Both the position numbers and the translations under genes were made by a program. The notes beneath the pieces are model-generated. The model was not told the DNA's origin and ran no database searches. It was given only the letters and a program-made list of their open reading frames with translations. From the IMG/VR virus record IMGVR_UViG_3300010938_000090, positions 1-36,084 of that record: a DNA stretch of 36,084 bases; one strand, given 5' to 3'. Below are positions 2,332-28,928 of this stretch, one piece after another. Within the stretch, counting starts at the first letter, position 1. Each line of letters starts with the position of its first letter. This DNA comes from a virus.

Positions 2332-3306
2332 ATGGAGACTGGAGTCGAGACGAAGCTGCCTGCGGCAGTCCGCAGGCGGGTGGAAGCGGCAAAGAAACTG
2401 GCGGATGCCGAGCAGACCCCACCGCAGAACGATGAGGTCAGCGCGAAGCAGGACGCAGAAGAGGAGCCGCCTCAGCCTGTGCAGCAGCAACAGCCACAGG
2501 AGAAGCCCGCTGAAGACCCGCGTGAGCGTGACCCGGCGTACTGGAAGCAGAGATTCAACTCGACGATGGGCATTCTCCGCAAGGAGCGGGAAGAGCACGT
2601 CGCCGAGATTCGCAAGATGGCGGAACAGATCGCGGAGCTGCACGCCGAACTGGCGAAGCTGCGCGAGGCGAAAGACGACGATACCGTCGAACTGGAGTCG
2701 TACCTGACGGCCGAGCAGATCGCCAGCCTTGGAGAAGACAAGGCGGGAGAGATCGTCGGTCTGGCGCGCAAGGTTGTGGCAGCCGAGGTCAAGAAACTCG
2801 TCGACGCCCAGGTTGCGCCGGTACGGCAGCGTCAGGAGACGGAAGAACGGGTGAGACTGAGGGAGAAGCAGCAGCGCATGATCGACGCTCTGACGGATGC
2901 CGTCCCGAACTGGCAGGAAATCGACCAAGACCCACAGTGGCTGGTTTTCTGCGGAGAGGAAGACGAGTCAACCGGCATGACGCGGCAGGAGATCATCGAC
3001 AACGCGAAGGCGCGCTTCGATGCTCGACCGATCATTGCCCAGTTGCGGCAGTACATTGCGAAGCAGGGCTTCGTCCAGAAGCCCGTTCCGCAGCAGGCTG
3101 TTCCGCAATCCGCCTCGACGGGAAGGGCCGCTGACACGCTCGCTCAGGAACAGACTCCCGTTCCGCAGTTGTCCCGCGCCGAAATCAAACGCCGCTACAC
3201 GGAAATTGCGATGAATCGCAGGCTTTCGGATGAAGAACGCGCCAAGCGGGTCGCCGAGCTCGACGCCCTGGTAAAAAGGGCGCAGGAGGCAGGCACGATT
3301 ACCTGA
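2332..3306 (+). CDS. Capsid scaffold-like protein
   Basis: A 324-residue, highly charged, helix-rich protein directly before the capsid gene, as expected of a scaffold that guides procapsid assembly and then leaves. Residues ~40-70 are Pro/Gln/Glu-rich (PPQPVQQQQPQEKP). Residues ~75-115 form a coiled coil (ILRKEREEHVAEIRKMAEQ) and a second helical region runs to ~190. The C-terminal ~45 residues are basic and helical (RAEIKRRYTEIAMNRRLS), the part that binds capsid in other scaffolds. I chose the ATG at 2332 because GGAG lies 6 bp upstream; a TTG at 2320 would add four residues. Function is inferred from composition and position. Confidence 0.75.
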   Translation: METGVETKLPAAVRRRVEAAKKLADAEQTPPQNDEVSAKQDAEEEPPQPVQQQQPQEKPAEDPRERDPAYWKQRFNSTMGILRKEREEHVAEIRKMAEQIAELHAELAKLREAKDDDTVELESYLTAEQIASLGEDKAGEIVGLARKVVAAEVKKLVDAQVAPVRQRQETEERVRLREKQQRMIDALTDAVPNWQEIDQDPQWLVFCGEEDESTGMTRQEIIDNAKARFDARPIIAQLRQYIAKQGFVQKPVPQQAVPQSASTGRAADTLAQEQTPVPQLSRAEIKRRYTEIAMNRRLSDEERAKRVAELDALVKRAQEAGTIT

Positions 3307-7144: not shown

Positions 7145-9591
7145 TGAAGATTTCGGTCTCGCAGTTCAGAGGCGAGGCCCCGAGGATTTCCCCTCGCGCC
7201 CTGCCGGAAGGATTCGGGCAGTCCGCAGTGAACTGCCGCCTTCTGTCGGGCGATCTCGAAGCGTGGAGGAACTTCAAGCCGGACACGACGCTCTGCAAGA
7301 CGAACGTCGTGTCCGTCTACCCGCTGAGAAGCGGCTCGACGCTGTACTGGCTGGAGTGGTCTCAATCCGAGCTTGACGTTGGGGCCTACACGGTTCATGT
7401 CGCACGCCCTATGATCGGCGGCGACGAGACGCAGCGCATCTATTTCACCGGTACTGATCTGCCTCGTTGGACCAACTTCACGATGGCGACGGGCGGAACG
7501 GGTTGCATGCCGAAGGCAAGCCGTCCGCTTGGAGTTCCTTCTCCATCGTCCCCTCCGACCGTTTCCGGGAACGTATCCGGTGGAGCGCCGATCGACATCT
7601 TCGACGACCTGAACTCTGCACAGAATGGCATTCCGCCAGGCTGGCAGTTCTGCCCACAGGTCAACACTGGCTCATCTACCAGACTCGTCGAGTGGGTTTC
7701 CACCGGAGGCGTCGGCAACACCGGCCGTCTGAGGTACAGCATCTTCAACAACGGCAACGGATACGCGGTCAGGGATTTCGGTGTTGGCAACAGCGACACG
7801 GTAACCGTCGAGTTCGATTTCAGGCTGGACAAGAAATTCGCGGACAAGTACCCAACCGAGAACCTTTGGTTGCCGAACGACTTTCAGTTTTGGGGTATCT
7901 CGTTGATGTGCGACTCGTCCGGTGCCGGGACGATGGTCGAGGTGACGGCTCAGGAACCCGCTCCAAGTTTCTCAGTCCTCGGGCGGGCGCCAACGACTGC
8001 GTTTGGCGGCGGCCCGGTGATCTCGTCGGTGGCGATCAGCACAGCCCCACCTCTCGGCACGTATACGCATTTCAAGCTGGTCGGTACGAAACAAAGCGGA
8101 GGGACGTACTCGTGGAACGTCCAGGCGTTCGTCGGCTCGACACAGATCATCAACGCAACCGTGTCAGGACTGCCCGCGAAGGGTGGTTTCTGCGGCGTCA
8201 CGGCATATGCGTCTTCAGCGCCTAACCACGGAGACCAGATTTTTTCGATCGACAACTTCCACGTCACCGGGACCGCTCCACCGGCAGACGCAAGCGATGA
8301 TCTGGCGACGAGTTACGTCTACACGTTCGTCAACGACATCGGCGAAGAAAGCGGACCGAGCCCGGCGAGTGCGACCGTCATTCGTGATTCTGGCTCGACT
8401 GTCGTCGTGACGACGCCGACGACGGTTCCAAGCGGAATCGGACCCGAGTGGGGGATTACGTCGAAGCGAATCTACAGGGCCGTGACCGGAGCGACCGGAA
8501 CGGCTTTCTACTTCGTCGCGGAGATACCGCTGGCGACGGCGACGTACAACGACAACTCCCTCGACAGCGAGGTCGTTGCCCGCGGATTGTTGATCTCCGA
8601 GAACTGGGCGCTTCCGCCGGACGACCTGCGCGGGATTCTCGCGCTGCCGAACGGCATCATGGCCGGCTTCAGAAAGAATCAGCTTTGCCTGAGCGCGCAA
8701 GACAGGCCGCACGCATGGCCGGTTGAATACCGACTGGCAACCGACTTCGAGATCGTCGGCATCGGCGCGATCGACACGATGGTCGTGATCTGCACGGAAG
8801 CCTTCCCTTACATTGCGGCAGGCAACTCTCCGGACGCCTACAGCATGGCGAAGCTGGAGATTCCTCAGGGTTGCGTCTCCGGGCGCTCGATTGCATACAT
8901 CGCCGGCATCGGCGTTCTGTACGCATCGCCGGACGGACTGGTCGCCGTGTCAGGGCCTGGACGGGTCTCCGTCGTTACGGAAAAGCTGTTTTCACGGAAA
9001 GAGTGGCAGGCACTGAAGCCGTCGTCGATCATTGGTTTGTCGCACGACAACAGATACTTCGGCTTTTACGACACCGGAACGGAGAATGGCGGATTCGTCA
9101 TCGACTTCGGAGATGCCGGATTCGGCAAGGTGTCGCTTGCGTTCCACGCAAGAGCTGGCTACTCCGACCCGTTGACGGATTCGCTGTTCATCGTTCTCGA
9201 CCAGAACAGTCCACCAGGACCGCTAGGAAGTCCGGCTTCAGGCCAGTTCACGGTCAACGGCGGGACACTCTACCGGTTCGACGAGTACGATGGTTCGCCG
9301 CCTGGGTTCAACGCCAGGATTCCGTATCGGTGGAAGAGCAAGTCGTACCTGCTGCCGTACGCCGCCGACTTCCGCTACGCGGTCGTCAAGGCCGAGTCCT
9401 ATGACGACCTGACGATGGTGTTGTATGCGAACGGGCAGTCCTACTACTCCGTCGAAGTGACCGGGGACACCGAGATCGCTCTTCCGACACCTCCGAGGAC
9501 ATCGGCGGCGACGCAGTTTCACGTGGAACTCTACGGGACTGCAAGGGTGTACTCGTTGCAGATCGCAGAGGATGTATCGGAGATCGACTGA
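7144..9591 (+). CDS. Large tail protein, nozzle/tail-tube-like, with inserted beta-sandwich
   Basis: An 815-residue protein starting KISVSQFRGEAPRISPRALP. This N-terminus (small greedy FRG-x-PR motif, then many strands) is typical of the long beta-rich tail proteins that follow adaptors in podovirus-like phages; by position it corresponds to the T7 gp12-type nozzle. Residues ~150-375 look like an inserted lectin/concanavalin-like sandwich (DIFDDLNS...GIPPGWQF, then VTVEFDFRLDKKF and FSIDNFHV). A Fn3-like stretch (YVYTFVNDIGEESGPS) and propeller-like strands follow. ATG at 7144 has GGTGAG 5 bp upstream and overlaps the previous stop; a GTG at 7138 is less likely. The exact fold is inferred. 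Confidence 0.7.
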   Translation: MKISVSQFRGEAPRISPRALPEGFGQSAVNCRLLSGDLEAWRNFKPDTTLCKTNVVSVYPLRSGSTLYWLEWSQSELDVGAYTVHVARPMIGGDETQRIYFTGTDLPRWTNFTMATGGTGCMPKASRPLGVPSPSSPPTVSGNVSGGAPIDIFDDLNSAQNGIPPGWQFCPQVNTGSSTRLVEWVSTGGVGNTGRLRYSIFNNGNGYAVRDFGVGNSDTVTVEFDFRLDKKFADKYPTENLWLPNDFQFWGISLMCDSSGAGTMVEVTAQEPAPSFSVLGRAPTTAFGGGPVISSVAISTAPPLGTYTHFKLVGTKQSGGTYSWNVQAFVGSTQIINATVSGLPAKGGFCGVTAYASSAPNHGDQIFSIDNFHVTGTAPPADASDDLATSYVYTFVNDIGEESGPSPASATVIRDSGSTVVVTTPTTVPSGIGPEWGITSKRIYRAVTGATGTAFYFVAEIPLATATYNDNSLDSEVVARGLLISENWALPPDDLRGILALPNGIMAGFRKNQLCLSAQDRPHAWPVEYRLATDFEIVGIGAIDTMVVICTEAFPYIAAGNSPDAYSMAKLEIPQGCVSGRSIAYIAGIGVLYASPDGLVAVSGPGRVSVVTEKLFSRKEWQALKPSSIIGLSHDNRYFGFYDTGTENGGFVIDFGDAGFGKVSLAFHARAGYSDPLTDSLFIVLDQNSPPGPLGSPASGQFTVNGGTLYRFDEYDGSPPGFNARIPYRWKSKSYLLPYAADFRYAVVKAESYDDLTMVLYANGQSYYSVEVTGDTEIALPTPPRTSAATQFHVELYGTARVYSLQIAEDVSEID

Positions 9592-11809: not shown

Positions 11810-13392
11810 TGCAATACACGCCTCCGGCCGCCGGTATTCTGTCCGGTTTCGAGAAGGGAATCGACCTCTACCAGAAACTGGTCGAGCGCCCGAAGATCGA
11901 GCAAGAAGAGCGCGCCTACAAAACGCGCCAGCGCGAGCGCGAGGAAATCGAATTCCAAGGCCGGCAGGAAGACCGCGCAACGCAGCGTGAAAGAGGTATT
12001 CGCAACGAAGAGGCGGCGCGCATCAAGGGCCAACTCGACCTCATCGCGAACGAACAGGAAAGCCTTGCCCAACAGGCGGCCGCGCTGCGCATCCAGTACG
12101 GCAGCGAGATTCCAACCGAGGCCAAGGCCAAACTCGGGGCGGCGTTTCGTGCGCTTCAGGCCAAGCGGGAAAAGCTCCTGTCCGATGCGGAAGGTCTGTG
12201 GAAGAAAGTCAACGAGACGGGAACCGGCGCACTGCAAAGGCTGAACGCAGGAGACACGAACGTCGGCAACAAGGATCTGCTTTCCGCGGTGGCGATCACC
12301 GGGTACGACCCGAGGCTTCTGACGCAGCCCGATCCGACGCTTCCGTCGCCTCTACAGAAAGCCGTCATGGATGTCCATGACGCGATGGAGAGCGGCAATT
12401 TCGAGAAGGCGGCGGACGCGGCGAACGTGATTCTGTCGCCAGAGCTTCGCAAGGGAGTCGGATCGCCCGGCGCGGACGGCACGACGATCACGAAGAAGGA
12501 GATCGTCGGCTTCGTCCCATCGCCGGACGGAGGGAGGGTCAGCCCGGTCCTGCGCGTGTACACGGTGGGCAATCCGCAGGGGTACATCGCGCCGGTGACG
12601 AAGAATCGAACCGCCGATCCGAATGACGAGCCCGTGTTCCTCTCGATGGAAGACCTGCTTGATCGCGTCGGCAAGGTCAAGCAACTGGCCGACGTGTTCA
12701 GCACGCCGGCGATGCAGCAGAAGCTTCAGGAGGGACTGCAAAAAGGCGCGGACGACATCGACGTTGCACTCGAATACTTCGGCCGGATACCTCTGCCGAA
12801 GAACATCGGTGGCATCTACGGCCGCACCAAGGTCGATCGCATCGACGCTGGAGACAAGGTAATTATCGTCGTGCGCGATCGCCTGACAGGGGAAATCCTC
12901 GATCAGCAGGAGGTGCCAAAAGGCGTCTCCCCGGACGCCGCGACGAAGGCGCAAGCCACCGTCACCGCCGCGGGTATCCGCGCCGGCAGCGCGGAGAGAG
13001 TTGCCCAAACGAGGCAGGCAGGGAAGACCCCCTCAGGAATCGGCGCGGGCGCCACGCCGAAGCTTACGGACAGGAACATCGAGTCGCTCGTCGACAATGC
13101 AGCATCGAAGATCGGTCTGTTCAGGGACAAGGGCACCTGGTACAAGCTGGAAGAAAGGAACGGCCGGCAGGTGCGCGTCGAGCCGAACCAGGATGACCTG
13201 AAGCTCATCAATCAGGTTCGCGCGGGGATCGTCTCGTACGCGAAGGGCGGAACGAAGGGAACGGAGCAGACGCGGGTGTACACCAGTCCGTCCGAGTTGC
13301 CGCCGCCTGAGCAGCGTGCCGTTGGTCAGCCGTTCAACCTGAACGGCAAACTCCGCGTGTGGATGGGGTCGGGATGGCTGCCGCTGGATTGA
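11809..13392 (+). CDS. Internal virion protein (T7 gp15-like position)
   Basis: A 527-residue protein. Residues ~25-110 form a long charged coiled coil (ERAYKTRQREREEIEFQGRQ), followed by mixed alpha/beta sequence, an Asp/Gly-rich middle and a C-terminal segment ending KLRVWMGSGWLPLD. It lies between the glycine-zipper protein and the giant ejected protein, overlapping both by one base (TGATG at each end), so the three are probably made in fixed ratio. This is the place of T7 gp15. There is no firm family match. Confidence 0.6.
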   Translation: MQYTPPAAGILSGFEKGIDLYQKLVERPKIEQEERAYKTRQREREEIEFQGRQEDRATQRERGIRNEEAARIKGQLDLIANEQESLAQQAAALRIQYGSEIPTEAKAKLGAAFRALQAKREKLLSDAEGLWKKVNETGTGALQRLNAGDTNVGNKDLLSAVAITGYDPRLLTQPDPTLPSPLQKAVMDVHDAMESGNFEKAADAANVILSPELRKGVGSPGADGTTITKKEIVGFVPSPDGGRVSPVLRVYTVGNPQGYIAPVTKNRTADPNDEPVFLSMEDLLDRVGKVKQLADVFSTPAMQQKLQEGLQKGADDIDVALEYFGRIPLPKNIGGIYGRTKVDRIDAGDKVIIVVRDRLTGEILDQQEVPKGVSPDAATKAQATVTAAGIRAGSAERVAQTRQAGKTPSGIGAGATPKLTDRNIESLVDNAASKIGLFRDKGTWYKLEERNGRQVRVEPNQDDLKLINQVRAGIVSYAKGGTKGTEQTRVYTSPSELPPPEQRAVGQPFNLNGKLRVWMGSGWLPLD

Positions 13393-16300
13393 TGTCCGAT
13401 GAGGAAGCGTTCGGCGTCGTCCGGGAAGAAACCGGCGGTCCGCAATTCGTTTCCGGAAGGCAGCTTCTCAGCGACGATGAAGCGTTCGGCACGTCGCCCG
13501 CAAGCGGCGATCTGCGCGATCCGCGCGACATCGCGGCGACTCGCGGACGACCCTATGCGCCGGCGATTCAGCAGCAGAACATTCAGCAGCCACTGATCCC
13601 TGGCTCTGCCGGGATTTCTGGTGGATCGCTGTCTGACGGCATGGCCGAGTACGTGTCGTTCGCGTCTCGGCTTGATGAGGAGCAGCAGACGCCGAAACCG
13701 CCGCCCGGCGCCGGCGTCATGTGGGGATACAACGGACAGATTCCGTCCGTCGTACGGCTTCCACCTGCCGGACCGGGTGGGATCAGGCCGACAGGCGAGA
13801 TCGGTCCGATTACCGGACCCAAGCCGACACTCGGCACGATGGCGCGCCACCTCGGGCGGGTGGTCGAGGACGTGCCGAAAGACATGGTGTACGGCACGGC
13901 GGCTCAGATTGCCGGCCTTCTGTCGAAGGCTGGAGTCGACGGCATGGCCGGCGCTGAGAAGCGCGCCCTGCAAAAGCAGGCCAGACTGGAGCTCGAACGC
14001 CTGTCGATGCGCCCTGAGTTCGAGGAAGACGGCCTTGCCGCGCTCGCATACGGCGGTCTTGAGAACATCGCCTACATGGCCCCGGTCATCGCCGGCTCGC
14101 TGTTGCTTGCCCCGGGAGAGACGATCCCGGCATTGGCGGGGATTTTCGAGCAGCAGGCCGCACGGAGCTACGGCGAGTACAGGCGCAAGGGGATAGGGGT
14201 AGAAAGGGCGCTTCCGCTCGCCCAGTTGCAGGGCCTGATCGAAGCCGGGACGGAAGCCCTTCCGATGGCGACGGTCGTCAAGATTCTGGGGAAGGGCGGG
14301 CTCAAGACGCTTCTTTCACAACGTCTGCGGGAATGGGCCGGAAGGGAAGTTCCATCTGAACTTCTGGCGTCGCTGTCCGAGACGGCCGTTGATCGCTACC
14401 TTGCCGTTGGTCCGGACGAGAAGACGCCGACGCTTGCCGAGTACCTCGAAGAAGTCAAAGGCCAGATTCCGCAGATTCTCGTGACAACCGGCATGATGGC
14501 CGGCGGGCTTGGGCTTGCCGGCAGGGCCGCCCAGCGCGCCGAGCGGAAGGCGACTGGCATCAAGCCAAGGGAAGAGAAGGCCACGCCGGAGACGCTTGAG
14601 GCGATCGAGCAGATGAGGCAGGCGTCGGCCGCTCAACCGCCGCCGTCGAAGTCGTTCGAGGCCGTCAAGGACAAGTTCGTCGCCGAGAAGGACGAAAGCG
14701 GCAATGTCGTCTATCGCGCCCCGAATGGAGCGAGGATCACGCCAGATCAGTGGGAGAACGCATCTGACCGGCTCAAGACTGCGTGGCTGACCCCGGTAGA
14801 AGGAGTGGCCGAGCAACCTGTACAGCAGGGACAGCCGCAGGAGCAACCGCAGAAACGCGAGTCGAGAAGGGTTGCGACTCTGCGAGAAGCGCTCGACCGC
14901 GAGACCGACCCGAAGGCCCGCGTCGAACTGCAACGCAAGTTGCAGGAGGCTGTTCGTGATGAGCAAATCCAGGCGGCCGCCCTGGACAAGGCGCAGCGCC
15001 TGACCGAGCTTGCGGCATCCGTAGAGGATGAGGGAATCCGCAGGGAATTCCTCGACGAGGCGAAGGATCAGCTGCGTAGGGCTGGCATCCTTGCGGAGAA
15101 AGAAACGCCGCCGGCAACTGGCATTGCGGTCAGGGAGCTCACTCACGAGGAGTCCGTCGCATCCGATCTCGAATCCCTGACAGAGCAGAGGCCAAGCGCC
15201 AAGGGAATCAGCGTCTCCGAATCCACGCTGGATGAGGCCGTCGGGCAGGAAAAGCCGGAAGCGAAACCGAGCGCCAAGGGAATCAGCGTCGAGACGATCC
15301 CGTTCGAACAGGCTCTTCCAAAGGACGTGACGGAGAAAGCGGCCCCAACGGCCGGCATAAATGTCACCGAGATGACGCCGGAAGAGGCTCGATCCTCTGG
15401 GCTCATCGAGCATGCCGAAGCGATCACGCCGGAAGAATACGCGACCGAGAAAGCCAACAGTGAGGCGCAGATTGCCGCTCAGGAGGCGGCGGCGGCAGAG
15501 CAGCCGGTCCCCCCGGCTGGTGCGAAATCGGCAGACCGTGCGCTTGGTCTGATCGCCGAGGCGCGCCAGAGGATCCAGACGCTTCAGTCGGATGCGGAGC
15601 AGAACCCGGAGATCGCAGCAGAGGCGAAGAAGGAAATCGCTTTCGAACGGAACAAGATTCGCCGCCTCGTCGAGGCGAGGAGCGCGCTCGCCAAGGCGAC
15701 CAAGGTGAAGGACAAGGCTCTCCAGGCCAAGGTCGTCGAGAAGGCGAACAAGGTCATCGAGTCCTACGCCACGAAAGAGGAGCCCGCCAAAGTCGAAAAG
15801 GCCGGCAAGGAGCAGCCAGAGCCGAAGTACAAGGACAGCCGCCTGCTGACCCTTTTGGTGAAAGTCGGAGGCATCAGCAGGTCGATCATGCACGACCTTG
15901 GCCTGGACGACGTGTACAAGATCACGACCAGAATCGACAAGCGTGGCGTGCGCGTTCCTCAGAAGAGGAAACTCACCCAACTCATCATCAACGGGAAACC
16001 GCTCTTTCCGAAGGATGGCGGTCTACAGGAGGATGGGGTTCTCTACTACCTGAAAGAGGCCGGATTCCTCCAAAGCGATGATGTCGGGATAGATCAGGCA
16101 GGCAAGCTCATCGAGAGGGAACTTGAGTCTCCGGGGTCCGTTCGCCCAATCGGAGAGGCCGAACTCTTCGAGCAGGCGAAAGCGCAGAAGGCGCAGGATG
16201 AAGAGCACAGGGAAGAGCTCATCGACGACCTGCGCAGCATCGGCGTACACGTAGACAAGAACGCCAGCCTGAAGGACGTTCGTGAAGCGCATGCGCGAGC

Positions 16301-19300
16301 ATTCGCCAACGAATGGATTTCCGAGATGGACAATCAGGAACGCGAGGCTTATGACTTCTGGAAGAAGAAGCTCGGCCTCGTGGACGAAGACGCAATCAAT
16401 GCCGCATTGACCCGTCAGGCCGCCGAGATCGACCCGGATGCGATCGAGGAGGCGGCTCTTAGGCATGCAGATGATGACGATGCGTTCATGCGCGTCGTCA
16501 GGGAGGTGTTACGTGAGGGTTCCGCAAATGGACGTGAAAGCCGTGCAGGGCGGCCGCAGGTCACTGAACCGGCTGTACAAGGCGGCGCTGGTAATGCCCC
16601 CGTCGGTCTACCAGAGATGGCTATCTACACAGGAGGCCCTGAAAGCCGCGCACAGGATCAGGCCGGAGGTCAGGAAGGCGCCGCCAGGGGTCAACCCGAA
16701 CCTCGTGCCGTCGGCGAAGGTGCTGCCGTTTCCGAAGCTCAACCAGGGGCTGAACGCGGCGGAGGTGGCGCAGCCGGACGAGATCAGAAAAGGGACAACG
16801 TAAGGGAGTACAGGGAGGTACTGGACAACGCATCGAAGAGCCTGTCCGACTATTTCAAGCGTAACGTCAAGTTCGTCCTCGACGTTCCACGCACTCCGGA
16901 GCACAGGTTCTGGTTGGAGTTCATGAAGAACATCGGCGGCGAGGCCGCGTTCTTCAGGGATGAAGGCGACCACGTTGCCAACGGCTTCTACAACCGCAAG
17001 TCGAATGTCATCTTCATCAACGTCAATGCCGACAAGCCTGGGTTCGTCATCGCAGGCCACGAGTTCGGTCACTGGCTCAAGCAAAACCACGAGGATCTGT
17101 GGAAGCAGTTCCTGAGAGACATCCTGCCGAACATCAAGAACCTTCACGAGTACCACAAGGAACTGGCAGACAAGTACGTCCGGATGGGCGGCGAGCCATT
17201 GTCTGGCAGTCGAGTCATCGAGGAATTCGTTTCGGATGTGTTCTCGGACGCCCTGCACAGCAGGGACTTCCTGTTGGAAGTTGCGAAACAGGACGAGACG
17301 TTTTTCAGGAAACTGGCAAAAGCGATCGTCGATTGGATCGCCCAATTCGTTCGGAGAGTCAAGGCTGGTTCTGCGACGCATAGCCTCGTCGCGGATCGGT
17401 TCATCGAGGACATGCAGGCTGTTCGCTCACGCGCCATCGAAATCATGTCGATGTTGCAGCGAACGGCGAAAGAAACCAGAGAACTGGAGGCCCAGGTTCA
17501 GTCCGGTCTTGAGGGGATCGCGCTCGAACCGAAGAAAGAAGACCTCGACTTCGCGCTTGCCATCGCCGGACAGAACCTGCCATCGCCTCTCGGCACCAAC
17601 CAACCGGGCCAGCAGCTTGCGATGCTGCCAGAAGAGCGCGCGTGGGTTCGCAGGTGGTTCGACGTGTTCGATCGTGCGCTCGATGTCGAACGCGCTGCTG
17701 CCGAAGTAGGCAGGCCGCTGTCCGACAAGGAGTCGATCAGGCTTGCAGAGAAGCTGTTTCACGGCAAGGTGGAGCACGTCGGAAAGCAGTTCGACGAGAA
17801 GTACGTGAGACCTCTGGTCGAAGAGCTTCGCAAGATCAGGAAGCTCGACCTGACCGTCAAGGACGCGGGCGACTACCTGATGGCGAAGCACGCGCCCGAG
17901 CGCAACGCGACGATGGCGCTGCGCGATCCGCAGGGAAGGCAGGGGCTTTCCGGAATCACCGACCAGCAGGCCAAGCAGATCATCGGATCGTTCACCCCGG
18001 AGCAATCCGCCGCCCTGGAGCGTGTTGCCGATCTGGTCTACAAGATCAACGAGTTCAAGCTGGACACGCTGGTCAATTCCGGACTCATCAAGCAGGAAAG
18101 CGCTGACTTCCTGCGGCAGCAGTGGAAGTATTACGTGCCCCTGAAGGACATCAGCGTCGAGGACGAAATCACCGGCGTAGGACGCGGCTTCCAGATTTGG
18201 GCGAACGACATCAAGAAGGCGTTCGGACGAACGACGGCTGCCGGGAACCCGATCGCCAACGCGATCCACGACGCCACCCGCGCCATTCTTCGCGCAGGCA
18301 AAGCCGAGGTCGAGCAGACGATCTGGCGAGCCGCGCAGGTTCCGGAGCTGCACGACATCATCAGGCCGTACGATCCGGACAATCCCCCGGATGAAGTGAA
18401 GACCCGGAAGGACGACCCGGAGACCGGCACATGGAAGATGGTCGTCGATCCGGCAAAAGTCGATGCGCTGACCATGAACATGGTCATCAACAGCGAGAAC
18501 GTGCGCGTGTTCGTCCCGGACGAAACGCTTCTGACAGCACTCAAGAAGGCCGGGAACATCGAGAAGCTGGACGCGGTTTTGCGAGGAACGGCGGTCGTCA
18601 CGAGGACGCTCGGCCGGACGCTCACGGAATGGAACCCGACGTGGAGCCTGCCGAATGCCGTGAAGGATGCGATCGTGGCGACGCTGCGGTCGCGGGCGAT
18701 CAAGGGGATGAGTGCCGCGCGCGTGCTTGCCAGAATTCCGAAGGCGTGGGCGCAGATCATCGCATATCACGCCAACGAGAATTCCCCCCTTGCTGCGCCC
18801 TACAGGGAGTTTCTGGAGCAGGGAGGCAAGACGGGGGCATATGGACTGACCGGACCTGCAGAAATCCTTGCCGGCCTGGCAAGAAGCGGAGCCAGGGTAT
18901 CGGAAGAGCAGGGAGTCCTGACCGACGTTGGAAGGTACGCGCTCGCAGGCCCGAAGGCGATTCTCGACACGATGAGTTTCCTGAACGAGGTCGTCGAGTA
19001 TGCGACCCGCCTCGCGGCTTACACGGAGGCGCGCAGGGCCGGCTACTCGAAGGAGCGAGCAGCGGAGATCGCCAAGGAAATCACCGTGAACTTCAACCGC
19101 AAGGGCGAGATGTCGAAGCCCTTCGGCGCTCTGTACGTGTTCTTCAACGCTGCCATGCAGGGCACGTATGGAACGTTCAACCTCTTGAGCGGTGACCAGC
19201 GCCTCATCAAGGCGGGGAGCACGTCTCCAGCCAGGATGGTCACGGCCCTGTCCATCCTGCCTGCGCTCGGGATGGCAACCGAGTTCGTGAACTGGCTCGT

Positions 19301-20276
19301 CGGCGGTGACGATGAAGAATCCGGCCTGAAAAATCCGCAGACGATCAGCGAGTACACACTGGATCACAACGTCACCCTGTTCAATGGCAGGGAGAATGGC
19401 GGTCACTTCAAGATTCCGCTTCCGCCTGAGTACACGTTCCTGTACGCGATGGGCAGGAGGTCGGCGAACGCCGTTCTGACCGGGAAGTACATGCACAACG
19501 CGGCCGGCATCGTCGGCGGGATCATCGACTCGCTTGTGCCTGTCAGGCTGTCGGAAGCGGACAGCGTGCCGGAACAGCTTGCCAAGGCCGCGATTCCGTT
19601 TCCAGCAGCGCCGATTTACGATGTCATCATCAACAAGAACTTCCTCGGCGGAACGATCGTTCCTCCGCAGCGGACGCCGAACGCGCCTGTACCGTATGCG
19701 TCGATCGCGCGCAGGAGCACGTCGGATGTTGCGAAGCTCGTCTCCAAAGGGCTTAACGTCGCCACCGGAGGAGACGAGGTAACTCCTGGATACGCGCAGA
19801 AGGTTCTCGGACCGTTCGCAAGCGCAGAAGCGATCGAGTACATGACGAGGGCGTACACCGGCGGGCTCGGGCAGTTCGTCCTGCAAACGTCGAATCTGGT
19901 CAAGGCGCTCAAGGGCGACGAGTCTGCATTCGACCGGAACAAGGCCCCGGTCGTCTCGCGCTTCTATTCCGAGAGACCGAAGGGATACATGGCGCGCGCT
20001 TTCGACAAGGTGGAGGGCGCGATTCAGCGCGAGATGCGCAGACAGAAAGCCGGACTCGCCGAAGAGGATGATGCTGCGCGGGATGTGATTTTCACCTACA
20101 GGTCGGTAAACTCTGAACTCAAGAAGCTGTTCGACGAACAGAAGAAGGCCGCAATCGAAGGAGACCTGAAACGGTCCGAAGATCTTCAGGAAAGCATCAG
20201 GGCCGTTCAGGCACGCTTGGTCAGGGCATACCTTGATGCCCGTCGTTCCAAAGGGCTGAAGCCCGTTCTGCCGTAG
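13392..20276 (+). CDS. Giant ejected internal virion protein with metallopeptidase motif and LPD38-like C-terminus
   Basis: 2294 residues, the T7 gp16 position. The start ATG overlaps the previous stop (TGATG). Regions: Gly/Pro-rich N-terminus (1-130); membrane-seeking helices (~190-380; APVIAGSLLLAPGETIPALA); charged helical linkers with four short GI(S/A/N)V repeats (~570-690); coiled coil (~715-800); low-complexity G/A/Q/E linker (~1041-1137) that overlaps a nested gene; a zincin-like domain with HEFGH at 1223-1227 and a candidate third ligand at E1277/E1278 (VIEEFVSD); helical middle; and from ~1747 a region like the large polyvalent protein associated domain LPD38 (NPTWSLPNAVKD, then FNRKGEMSKPFGALYVFF). 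I infer entry into the host with the DNA, where the peptidase may act. No lytic transglycosylase motif was seen. Confidence 0.8.
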   Translation: MSDEEAFGVVREETGGPQFVSGRQLLSDDEAFGTSPASGDLRDPRDIAATRGRPYAPAIQQQNIQQPLIPGSAGISGGSLSDGMAEYVSFASRLDEEQQTPKPPPGAGVMWGYNGQIPSVVRLPPAGPGGIRPTGEIGPITGPKPTLGTMARHLGRVVEDVPKDMVYGTAAQIAGLLSKAGVDGMAGAEKRALQKQARLELERLSMRPEFEEDGLAALAYGGLENIAYMAPVIAGSLLLAPGETIPALAGIFEQQAARSYGEYRRKGIGVERALPLAQLQGLIEAGTEALPMATVVKILGKGGLKTLLSQRLREWAGREVPSELLASLSETAVDRYLAVGPDEKTPTLAEYLEEVKGQIPQILVTTGMMAGGLGLAGRAAQRAERKATGIKPREEKATPETLEAIEQMRQASAAQPPPSKSFEAVKDKFVAEKDESGNVVYRAPNGARITPDQWENASDRLKTAWLTPVEGVAEQPVQQGQPQEQPQKRESRRVATLREALDRETDPKARVELQRKLQEAVRDEQIQAAALDKAQRLTELAASVEDEGIRREFLDEAKDQLRRAGILAEKETPPATGIAVRELTHEESVASDLESLTEQRPSAKGISVSESTLDEAVGQEKPEAKPSAKGISVETIPFEQALPKDVTEKAAPTAGINVTEMTPEEARSSGLIEHAEAITPEEYATEKANSEAQIAAQEAAAAEQPVPPAGAKSADRALGLIAEARQRIQTLQSDAEQNPEIAAEAKKEIAFERNKIRRLVEARSALAKATKVKDKALQAKVVEKANKVIESYATKEEPAKVEKAGKEQPEPKYKDSRLLTLLVKVGGISRSIMHDLGLDDVYKITTRIDKRGVRVPQKRKLTQLIINGKPLFPKDGGLQEDGVLYYLKEAGFLQSDDVGIDQAGKLIERELESPGSVRPIGEAELFEQAKAQKAQDEEHREELIDDLRSIGVHVDKNASLKDVREAHARAFANEWISEMDNQEREAYDFWKKKLGLVDEDAINAALTRQAAEIDPDAIEEAALRHADDDDAFMRVVREVLREGSANGRESRAGRPQVTEPAVQGGAGNAPVGLPEMAIYTGGPESRAQDQAGGQEGAARGQPEPRAVGEGAAVSEAQPGAERGGGGAAGRDQKRDNVREYREVLDNASKSLSDYFKRNVKFVLDVPRTPEHRFWLEFMKNIGGEAAFFRDEGDHVANGFYNRKSNVIFINVNADKPGFVIAGHEFGHWLKQNHEDLWKQFLRDILPNIKNLHEYHKELADKYVRMGGEPLSGSRVIEEFVSDVFSDALHSRDFLLEVAKQDETFFRKLAKAIVDWIAQFVRRVKAGSATHSLVADRFIEDMQAVRSRAIEIMSMLQRTAKETRELEAQVQSGLEGIALEPKKEDLDFALAIAGQNLPSPLGTNQPGQQLAMLPEERAWVRRWFDVFDRALDVERAAAEVGRPLSDKESIRLAEKLFHGKVEHVGKQFDEKYVRPLVEELRKIRKLDLTVKDAGDYLMAKHAPERNATMALRDPQGRQGLSGITDQQAKQIIGSFTPEQSAALERVADLVYKINEFKLDTLVNSGLIKQESADFLRQQWKYYVPLKDISVEDEITGVGRGFQIWANDIKKAFGRTTAAGNPIANAIHDATRAILRAGKAEVEQTIWRAAQVPELHDIIRPYDPDNPPDEVKTRKDDPETGTWKMVVDPAKVDALTMNMVINSENVRVFVPDETLLTALKKAGNIEKLDAVLRGTAVVTRTLGRTLTEWNPTWSLPNAVKDAIVATLRSRAIKGMSAARVLARIPKAWAQIIAYHANENSPLAAPYREFLEQGGKTGAYGLTGPAEILAGLARSGARVSEEQGVLTDVGRYALAGPKAILDTMSFLNEVVEYATRLAAYTEARRAGYSKERAAEIAKEITVNFNRKGEMSKPFGALYVFFNAAMQGTYGTFNLLSGDQRLIKAGSTSPARMVTALSILPALGMATEFVNWLVGGDDEESGLKNPQTISEYTLDHNVTLFNGRENGGHFKIPLPPEYTFLYAMGRRSANAVLTGKYMHNAAGIVGGIIDSLVPVRLSEADSVPEQLAKAAIPFPAAPIYDVIINKNFLGGTIVPPQRTPNAPVPYASIARRSTSDVAKLVSKGLNVATGGDEVTPGYAQKVLGPFASAEAIEYMTRAYTGGLGQFVLQTSNLVKALKGDESAFDRNKAPVVSRFYSERPKGYMARAFDKVEGAIQREMRRQKAGLAEEDDAARDVIFTYRSVNSELKKLFDEQKKAAIEGDLKRSEDLQESIRAVQARLVRAYLDARRSKGLKPVLP
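16513..16803 (+). CDS. Nested out-of-frame gene within the giant virion protein gene
   Basis: A 96-residue frame starting GTG at 16513, with GGGAGGTG at 16501-16508 as a near-perfect Shine-Dalgarno sequence (4-6 bp spacing). It is shifted relative to the 13392-20276 gene. By hand count 81 of 96 nested codons end in G/C (84%), against 44 of 96 (46%) for the host frame over the same bases; in the host frame near 17041 about 84% do. The nested product is basic and ordinary-looking (SLNRLYKAALVMPPSVYQRW), while the overlapped host residues are a low-complexity G/A/Q/E linker. This suggests that selection acts on the nested frame. No family is recognised. Confidence 0.65.
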   Translation: MRVPQMDVKAVQGGRRSLNRLYKAALVMPPSVYQRWLSTQEALKAAHRIRPEVRKAPPGVNPNLVPSAKVLPFPKLNQGLNAAEVAQPDEIRKGTT

Positions 20277-27135: not shown

Positions 27136-28017
27136 CTATTCTTTCTCCTGTTGATCATTCCTGGCGTCTACCTTTTCCTGCTCTTCAGTCTCCTGCCTCT
27201 GCTTGCGCACACTCATGATCTTGCCGGCAAGGGACTTCTTCTCCTGCTCCTGCGGCGCGCCGGCCTGCTGCACCTCGAACCAGTCGGACACGTTCGACAT
27301 GCCGTCGCGCAGGCTCGCGTAGATTTTCTTCAGTTGCACGACCTGCGCAGGCGTGATGCTGTCAAGCCGGCGCTGGATGCGCAGTTCGATCTGTTCGCGC
27401 GTCACGCCGACGGCGGCGAACGCCTCGACCATCTTCTTGATCGACTCCGGAGAAACGTCAGCCTTCGCCTTCATCGTCGCTTCGCACTGCTCGACGGCCG
27501 CATCCACGACATCGCCAGGGATGAGGGCGAGAATGCAGGCGCGCACTCGGCGCGCTCCCTGATTGGCGACGGTTTCGTAGATGTCGCGCGGGTCTTCGAG
27601 CCGATAGCTTCCCTTCTTCGTCGACCGGATCAGCGGCACCTGAAACGTGACTTCCCGCCTCGTGCCGGTTTCCAGGTCCCACGCATACGCCTGCACCGTC
27701 GCATTCTCGTGATCGCGCGACAGTTCGCGCACTCCATACTGGAGATTGCCCCACGCCTGCGCAATCGCCTCGGCGAGCCTGATGGACGGGCCGCTGATGT
27801 CCGTTCCACCGCGCGCGTACTGATAGACGGCCTGTTCTGCCAGCGACGGGCGGGCGCATGACATCAGGATGCGGTCCATTGCCTTTCGCTCGTCGCGCGG
27901 ATTGGCGCGCGCCAGCATCATCGCGGCCTGCACTTCAGCGATTGCGCGCTGCTGTTCCGTAGCCACGACAGCGCCCTGGATGGTCTTCGTCACTTCGTAT
28001 TTCGCTTCGTCTTCCAT
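27136..28017 (-). CDS. Putative ssDNA-annealing recombination protein
   Basis: 293 residues from ATG 28017. The sequence RPSLAEQAVYQYARGGTDIS, GPSIRLAEAIAQAWGNLQYG and VANQGARRVRACILALIPGD matches a protein type I remember next to YqaJ exonucleases in many phages. The exonuclease gene is 2 bp upstream and SSB is two genes downstream, the usual partners of a RecT/Erf-type annealing protein. The last ~50 residues are a charged tail. It contains none of the classic RecT motifs I could confirm, so the role is mainly from context. Confidence 0.68.
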   Translation of the reverse strand: MEDEAKYEVTKTIQGAVVATEQQRAIAEVQAAMMLARANPRDERKAMDRILMSCARPSLAEQAVYQYARGGTDISGPSIRLAEAIAQAWGNLQYGVRELSRDHENATVQAYAWDLETGTRREVTFQVPLIRSTKKGSYRLEDPRDIYETVANQGARRVRACILALIPGDVVDAAVEQCEATMKAKADVSPESIKKMVEAFAAVGVTREQIELRIQRRLDSITPAQVVQLKKIYASLRDGMSNVSDWFEVQQAGAPQEQEKKSLAGKIMSVRKQRQETEEQEKVDARNDQQEKE

Positions 28018-28019
28018 AC

Positions 28020-28928
28020 TCACTCTCCGGTTTTCAGTTTCAGGCGCATCGTGCGCACCTCTTTTTCGGAGGTACACTCTCCAACGACGGTGCCGAGTTC
28101 GTCGATTGGCAACCTGGCCGAAAGCGTCTGGATCACCTTCTGCCAGTCCGTGCTCTTGCGCGTATATCCGCCGTACGAAAGCAGCACCTCTCCATTCGGC
28201 GCGATCAGTTCCGTTGCGTCCAGCATGTAGGCGGCGATCTTGTCGCGCCTGTCTTGCTCGGCCGCCTCCAGTCCGTTGATCTTCGCGCGGATGTCGGCGA
28301 TCTCTTGCGCCAAACGCTCGATCTCTTTGGTCGCAACGATCCGCTTTCCGGTCTTGGCCGACCAAAGTTTCTGAACATCCGCCTCGGATCGTGGAGCGGG
28401 CGGCACCTTTGCAAGAACGTGGTCCATCCAGAACTCGACGGCGATCTCGATCAAGGCGTTCTGCGCCTCTTCGTCGGCGTCGACCTTGTAAACGGACAGG
28501 TACTGCCCCGATACCAAGGCCGCAACGTGCGCGACGTCGGCTTTCGCCAGCGCCATGTACCACTGCACCTGCGTCTGATAGTAGTCAGGCACTTCATCCC
28601 ACTGGCTGGACGCTGCCTTCGCCTCAACCACGACGCGCGCGCCGTCGTCCGACTTGCTCATCGCATCCACGTGGCCGCGAATGAAGGCATGTTTCGGATG
28701 CACGAAGGGCTTGGCAACGCGCCTGACTTTCCTGTTCTCGCGCCTCGAATACTCGGCAATGATCAGCGGTTCCAGAAGCGTGCCCCACTTCATCCGCTCG
28801 GTCACGACGACTTCGCGGCCTTGGCCGGTCTTTTCGAGATACACGTCGAGCGGAGAGCGCCACGGACTGAGGCCGACGATAGCTCCGATGTCGGAACCGC
28901 CGATGTACTGGGTGCGGTCGTCCGTCAT
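28020..28928 (-). CDS. YqaJ-type viral exonuclease
   Basis: 302 residues from ATG 28928, which overlaps the previous stop (ATGA). Landmarks of the lambda-exonuclease/YqaJ family: YIGGSDIGAIVGLSPWRSPL near the start, MKWGTLLEPLIIAEYSRREN, GHVDAM (catalytic Asp), VVEAKAASSQ (the E-x-K pair) and YYQTQVQWYMALAKAD. The C-terminal ~100 residues form a coiled coil (ATKEIERLAQEIADIRAKIN) and a strand region. It resects DNA ends to give ssDNA for the annealing protein encoded just downstream. Confidence 0.9.
   Translation of the reverse strand: MTDDRTQYIGGSDIGAIVGLSPWRSPLDVYLEKTGQGREVVVTERMKWGTLLEPLIIAEYSRRENRKVRRVAKPFVHPKHAFIRGHVDAMSKSDDGARVVVEAKAASSQWDEVPDYYQTQVQWYMALAKADVAHVAALVSGQYLSVYKVDADEEAQNALIEIAVEFWMDHVLAKVPPAPRSEADVQKLWSAKTGKRIVATKEIERLAQEIADIRAKINGLEAAEQDRRDKIAAYMLDATELIAPNGEVLLSYGGYTRKSTDWQKVIQTLSARLPIDELGTVVGECTSEKEVRTMRLKLKTGE

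Follow-up and report, generated by a model that had tools for sequence, protein, structure and literature searches.

The locus analysed here raises the question of whether a 96-codon open reading frame (ORF), lying inside a giant phage gene, is itself a gene. The window, by which we mean the whole stretch of DNA that was analysed, is a complete IMG/VR virus record of 36,084 bases. The host gene encodes a 2305-residue protein whose residues 1995–2184 match Pfam LPD38 (E 3e-22; 80.1 bits against a cut-off of 27), identifying it as a member of this family. Its PHROG matches (14770, 616 and 10691) are to families of unknown function, and the host domain on the 3′ side of the linker gives a weak match to the Pfam DUF6782 metallopeptidase (E 0.016, under the DUF6782 cut-off). 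The features referred to below are as follows.

13359–20276, plus strand: host gene for the 2305-aa giant polyvalent (LPD38) protein (from the open frame, Pfam and PHROGs)
15801–16511, plus strand: host domain 5′ of the linker, with no Pfam match and no tblastn match in phages
16512–16802, plus strand: host linker, assigned by composition; the candidate nested gene read out of frame
16501–16508, plus strand: GGGAGGTG, Shine-Dalgarno-like site (GGAGG at 16502–16506), from the sequence
16513–16803, plus strand: candidate nested gene of 96 aa, from GTG to the stop TAA (16801–16803), +1 frame relative to the host
16438–16803, plus strand: longest form of the same frame in the ORF list, alternative start ATG 16438, 121 aa
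16465–16803, plus strand: alternative start ATG 16465, 112 aa, same +1 frame
17058–17072, plus strand: HEFGH, zincin-type metallopeptidase motif (from the sequence) in the host domain 3′ of the linker
19341–19910, plus strand: LPD38 domain of the host protein (Pfam)

The ORF at 16513–16803 lies wholly within another gene, in a different frame, and has its own start and stop. An earlier note on this DNA had described it as a GTG-started frame of 96 codons with a ribosome binding site inside a 6.9-kb gene, and the coordinates, the GTG, the TAA and GGGAGGTG are as described there. GGAGG sits 6 nt 5′ of the GTG, which qualifies it as an initiation signal. GGAGG or AGGAG is found 4–9 nt before four distinct starts in the host gene; 16513 opens 96 codons, and the other three open 14, 15 and 18. 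We looked for an unusually unstructured start region at 16513 and did not see one (MFE −13.0 vs a gene mean of −13.4). The product differs in composition from the host linker encoded by the same bases: G/A/P/S/Q/E/R/D/N make up 59% and hydrophobic residues 29% of the former, vs 88% and 9% of the latter, a contrast that fits a nested gene. Single-sequence structure prediction of the 96-aa product was poor (pLDDT 63), giving two low-confidence helices (residues 8–27 and 30–48) and a disordered tail.

To evaluate codon usage, we kept the host amino acids fixed and reshuffled the codons 2000 times. Openness of the frame was rejected as evidence for a gene, being ordinary here: the stretch remained open in 43% of the shuffles (P about 0.43), and a +1 frame of at least 122 open codons arose somewhere in the host gene in 98% of them. 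The third-position counts given earlier proved correct, with G or C at 81 of 96 positions in the nested frame and at 44 in the host frame (of 97 triplets with the stop); over the 97 triplets including the stop, GC1/2/3 is 62/44/81 in the nested frame and 82/62/44 in the host frame. The high nested GC3 was also rejected as independent evidence, because each third position of the nested frame is a first position of the host frame, and these are fixed by the G/A/E/Q/P/R-rich host sequence. Of the codon-bias switch that had been put forward as evidence, this half falls, whereas the dip on the host side stands. The host frame has 44 GC-ending codons of 97, where 69.2 (sd 4.2) are expected from the same amino acids and the lowest count in the 2000 shuffles was 51 (z about −5.8); the host codon dip over the ORF thus exceeds chance. 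Host GC3 reaches its minimum for the whole gene, 0.48, in 16527–16814 and is back to 0.82–0.84 by 16815–17198, in agreement with the recovery noted before. The best-fitting dip segment is 16455–16790, with support ranges (start 16434–16524, end 16766–16820) that enclose the start and the stop of 16513–16803. Scored against the phage's own codon usage, the nested frame averages +0.109 for each codon, with a permutation z of 2.6.

A compensated double frameshift, with indels near 16510 and 16800, would likewise produce this switch in codon bias and a nested frame that looks coding: it would have left the former host frame as today's nested frame, with nothing translated from it; the borders of the dip are fixed only to about 50–90 bases. 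Such an event needs no Shine-Dalgarno site, start or stop at its borders, and all three are present. Further evidence on this point comes from relatives.

Searches with the window's own sequence found no homologue. The earlier note had proposed a tblastn search with the 96-residue product; in phages this gave weak matches only, at E 2 and above, and no homologue was found in viral_contigs or genome_contigs. As that note had also held, the product belongs to no recognised family: it has no match in Pfam or PHROGs (in PHROGs none at E≤1, which excludes it from the phrog_2423 family discussed below) and no similarity to the other nested products with which it was compared. Homologues of the flanking host stretch were searched for and none was confirmed. 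Scanning with A1, the C-terminal alignment, found again only the contigs of L004–L006, and the nearest relatives of the host gene are without the stretch 16513–16803.

One of the three nearest relatives, L004 (41% identity in the C-terminal alignment), carries a nested ORF of its own. This 77-aa ORF (8358–8591) is a profile match to phrog_2423 (E 3.7e-19); tblastn with its product matched 436 phage records, and in all of the best 20 of these the match begins at residue 1. In Bcep781, phrog_2423 is annotated as a stand-alone gene next to a structural gene of the virion; in MW202867 it again stands alone, with the P22-like coat protein on one side and a tail accessory factor on the other. The L004 ORF resembles that of the window in lying in a linker before an HExxH domain, in the same giant-gene family, with an internal Shine-Dalgarno-like site; it differs in encoding another protein family and in being inserted elsewhere in the host protein. 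In L009 also, as in the window and L004, the host domain directly 3′ of the nested ORF has an HExxH motif, and this L009 domain matches that of the window (tblastn E 1.7e-5). In L034, L018, L038, L047 and L052 the nested ORF is 5′ of a helicase-like domain (judged by eye from the motif).

A second group, family A, comprises the homologous nested products of L034, L018 and L010 (z 9.5–18.9); the 96-aa product falls outside it (z −0.2 vs the ZX1 nested product). Family A matches the +1 frame inside two annotated genes, ‘PLxRFG’ in Klebsiella phage ZX1 and ‘DarB-like’ in Serratia phage Parlo, and is also present in Pseudomonas phage Skulduggery, for which P. fluorescens SBW25 serves as a laboratory host. 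Its predicted structure is all helical (pLDDT 76), and a fold search of the model in PDB and BFVD gave no match at E≤0.001. Between ZX1 and Parlo, the same bases give an identity of 0.64 in the nested frame and 0.48 in the host frame; third positions of the host change at 0.22 per codon, vs 0.51 in the flanks (p 1e-9), and substitutions favour the nested third position (57/117). LASTA and SopranoGao have an upstream domain in common with ZX1 (about 70%) and the same GAGGTAAC-CCGA-ATG context, and encode a nested protein of 108 aa that is unrelated to that of ZX1 (z 0.0) and whose similarity lies with the C-terminal end of phrog_938 (E 5.9e-21), as if cassettes had been exchanged at a single site.

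Reduced host-synonymous change was seen in other sets as well. The third-position rate is 0.02 vs 0.10 for LASTA/SopranoGao (p 0.002) and 0.07 vs 0.19 for DC1/BcepMigl (p 0.003), the share of third-position changes in the latter pair being no different (p 0.81). DC1 and BcepMigl have a 107-aa nested ORF with AGGAGG before its ATG (z about −14 for the 124-aa form), and L016, L025 and L035 have nested ORFs of 88–89 aa (three pairs, p 0.0024 or lower). For L038/L047, the nested alignment has z 14.2 vs 1.2 for the host. Overall, the host third-position rate over the first nested ORF of each gene was reduced in 8/8 pairs, which make up four independent sets, and host synonymous change over the nested ORFs of cultured phages was 1.7- to 5-fold lower. 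The comparison of synonymous change and nested conservation that the earlier note had suggested, made on these similar ORFs in other giant genes, thus favours selection for first ORFs and fails in the one pair of second ORFs (ZX1/Parlo, 1/1 pair, p 0.9). Its claim that selection acts on the nested protein is supported mainly via relatives.

The second ORFs of ZX1 and Parlo are possible nested +1 ORFs at L058:4252–4554 and L059:3772–4017 (2993–3295 and 2360–2605 in gene coordinates), with similar products (z 6.3). DC1 and BcepMigl also have a 54-codon +1 ORF (L066:2716–2880; giant-gene coordinates 2714–2878) with AGGAGG before its ATG and a host z of about −11; it shows few substitutions (5, 4 and 3 in 55 codons), and its product is Leu/Pro-rich.

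In these comparisons of sequences, the relatives show conserved nested proteins, reduced host-synonymous change and, for two products, in-frame relatives elsewhere. Relatives' nested ORFs begin and end as genes, that of L004 matching stand-alone genes from residue 1, and the conserved nested frames of ZX1, Parlo and Skulduggery are ill-suited to a dead frame. With the signals at the borders, these observations make the double frameshift very unlikely for the window.

How general the arrangement is was examined in a scan for nested ORFs of at least 60 codons with host z<−4. It returned 18 nested ORFs in 33 giant genes vs 3 in 265 other genes, and all 21 were in the +1 frame. These counts leave out 20 loci that were refetches, duplicates or near-duplicates (L001, L011, L017, L019–L024, L027, L031, L041, L042, L044, L048 and L053–L057); a separate pass, which also gave the alternative starts 16438 and 16465, kept duplicates save L001 and L053–L055. 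By eye, at least 2 of the 3 ORFs outside giant genes are apparently real genes under spurious long ORFs, and some of the 18 in giant genes look non-coding (e.g. L025, L040, L005/L006, L050 and one in L035). The giant genes of BKO1-TP3, Vibrio 252E42.2 and ctsTn925 had no nested ORF at z<−3.3, a comparison of little power at their GC3 of 0.43–0.47. Short +1-frame ORFs with similar products were also seen near the 5′ end of giant genes (L052:228–389, L050:465–620 and L049:495–650).

Codon scores were compared between 13 homology-supported nested genes and 12 other candidates, the ‘positive’ and ‘other’ labels being assigned by us and not blind. All 13 of the former score between +0.065 and +0.390 per codon, a range within which the window's +0.109 falls; of the latter, 9 score below zero and 3 above it, namely one ORF in DC1 and the second ORFs of ZX1 and Parlo. 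Linker-like stretches with lower GC3 are frequent in other LPD38 giant genes, and several of them contain, in the +1 frame, a protein-like ORF that has a start and a stop of its own. A codon dip is not a specific sign; such dips are found in linkers whether or not these hold a plausible nested gene. Outside the listed nested ORFs, 18 of the 66 linker windows taken from 11 giant genes fall below z −3, and one of them, in L006, covers a +1 frame containing stops. The least probable account, marginally behind the double frameshift, is that low-complexity linkers simply lose third-position GC through local GC balance or relaxed codon choice, the +1 ORF being a side effect; in many giant genes low GC3 does accompany linker composition, but the five other linker windows of the window's own gene average z −1.06 vs −4.09 over the nested ORF, and presumed non-coding +1 readings mostly score negative (the 9/12 above) where that of the window scores positive.

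The best-supported reading is that of a nested gene; its support comes mainly from relatives, the decisive part being comparative. With high confidence, resting on sequence evidence, we consider 16513–16803 to be a real same-strand nested gene in a giant phage gene, and we infer that it is translated. On the giant-gene mRNA, GGGAGGTG would direct ribosomes to initiate internally at GTG 16513; translation would proceed through 96 codons of the +1 frame to the TAA ending at 16803, so that a small protein is made in addition to the giant virion protein. Both flanking host domains would be kept, the same DNA being stop-free in the host frame and encoding a hydrophilic, disordered linker. Across LPD38/DarB-like giant genes the architecture appears to recur, with different small genes in interdomain linkers; the gene at a given linker would be exchangeable, and the homology-supported cases found are in the +1 frame.

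The earlier suggestion that the linker tolerates overprinting probably has the relation reversed: the disordered linker is probably, in large part, the out-of-frame shadow of the nested gene. It is rich in G/A/Q/E/R/P because a GC-rich gene read in this frame yields such a composition. When the gene's own third position serves as the first position of the host codon, a stop can arise only where a nested third position is T; this is rare, so the frame stays open; the host codons are then rich in G/A/D/E/R/Q/P, and the same frame is linker-like. We infer that base composition explains the +1 preference, consistent with the linker composition and the scan.

By extension, interdomain linkers of giant polyvalent proteins may quite generally conceal small genes that can be exchanged, the stop-poor −1 reading giving a disordered linker that lets neighbours fuse across an intact small gene so that both survive; we give this generalization an even chance. 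If it is true, unannotated genes would account, as their shadow, for much of the ‘low-complexity linker’ in DarB-like proteins, polyvalent-protein linkers would gain an evolutionary explanation, a recurrent phage gene class would be missing from databases, and some such hidden genes would be virion parts or helpers of the giant protein. Our guess, by analogy, is that the nested product might help load or assemble the giant protein: in two phage records (Bcep781 and MW202867) phrog_2423 genes lie among morphogenesis or structural genes, and the small Ulx of P1 is listed as aiding DarB localization in a table of PMC9024508.

The lambda-type spanin gene Rz1 embedded in Rz, which the Burkholderia phages DC1 and BcepMigl have as an annotated pair, is likewise a small same-strand gene wholly within another in a shifted frame. 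Rz1/Rz are lysis genes, whereas the window product, which by inspection has no cysteine for the lipoprotein signal of an Rz1-type spanin, sits in a linker of a giant virion-type protein. Closer parallels are the nested ORFs of ZX1, Parlo, Skulduggery, LASTA, SopranoGao, DC1 and BcepMigl, which like that of the window are same-strand, +1, in an interdomain linker of DarB-like/PLxRFG genes and under a host codon dip, although those of their proteins that were compared show no homology to that of the window. As a rule gene finders reject an ORF that lies inside a long gene, and none of these nested ORFs is annotated in the feature tables of the seven cultured phages, in which the nested-gene claim is immediately testable. 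For the Bcep22-like phage JC1, virion mass-spectrometry data exist (PMC9144972). The text available to us of the polyvalent-protein survey (PMC5512222) does not mention overlapping, frameshift, linker or low-complexity, and uses ‘nested’ of a fold; that of the Parlo announcement (PMC6606913) covers only the DarB homologue and embedded spanins. A search of open-access papers turned up no title or abstract opening that describes genes nested within DarB-like or polyvalent ones, which falls short of proving novelty, most subscription papers being beyond its reach.

Two minor observations concern the window. The nine bases CAGGGAGGT occur at both 16499–16507 and 16811–16819, flanking the nested ORF on either side; the copies are separated by 312 bases (104 codons), and in the host frame each encodes REV; the pairing could be chance or an insertion mark. 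On the minus strand, a 475-aa ORF (27136–28563) overlaps a second minus-strand ORF (about 28020–28556) whose codon choice is more gene-like (z −5.8), and gene calling there needs care.
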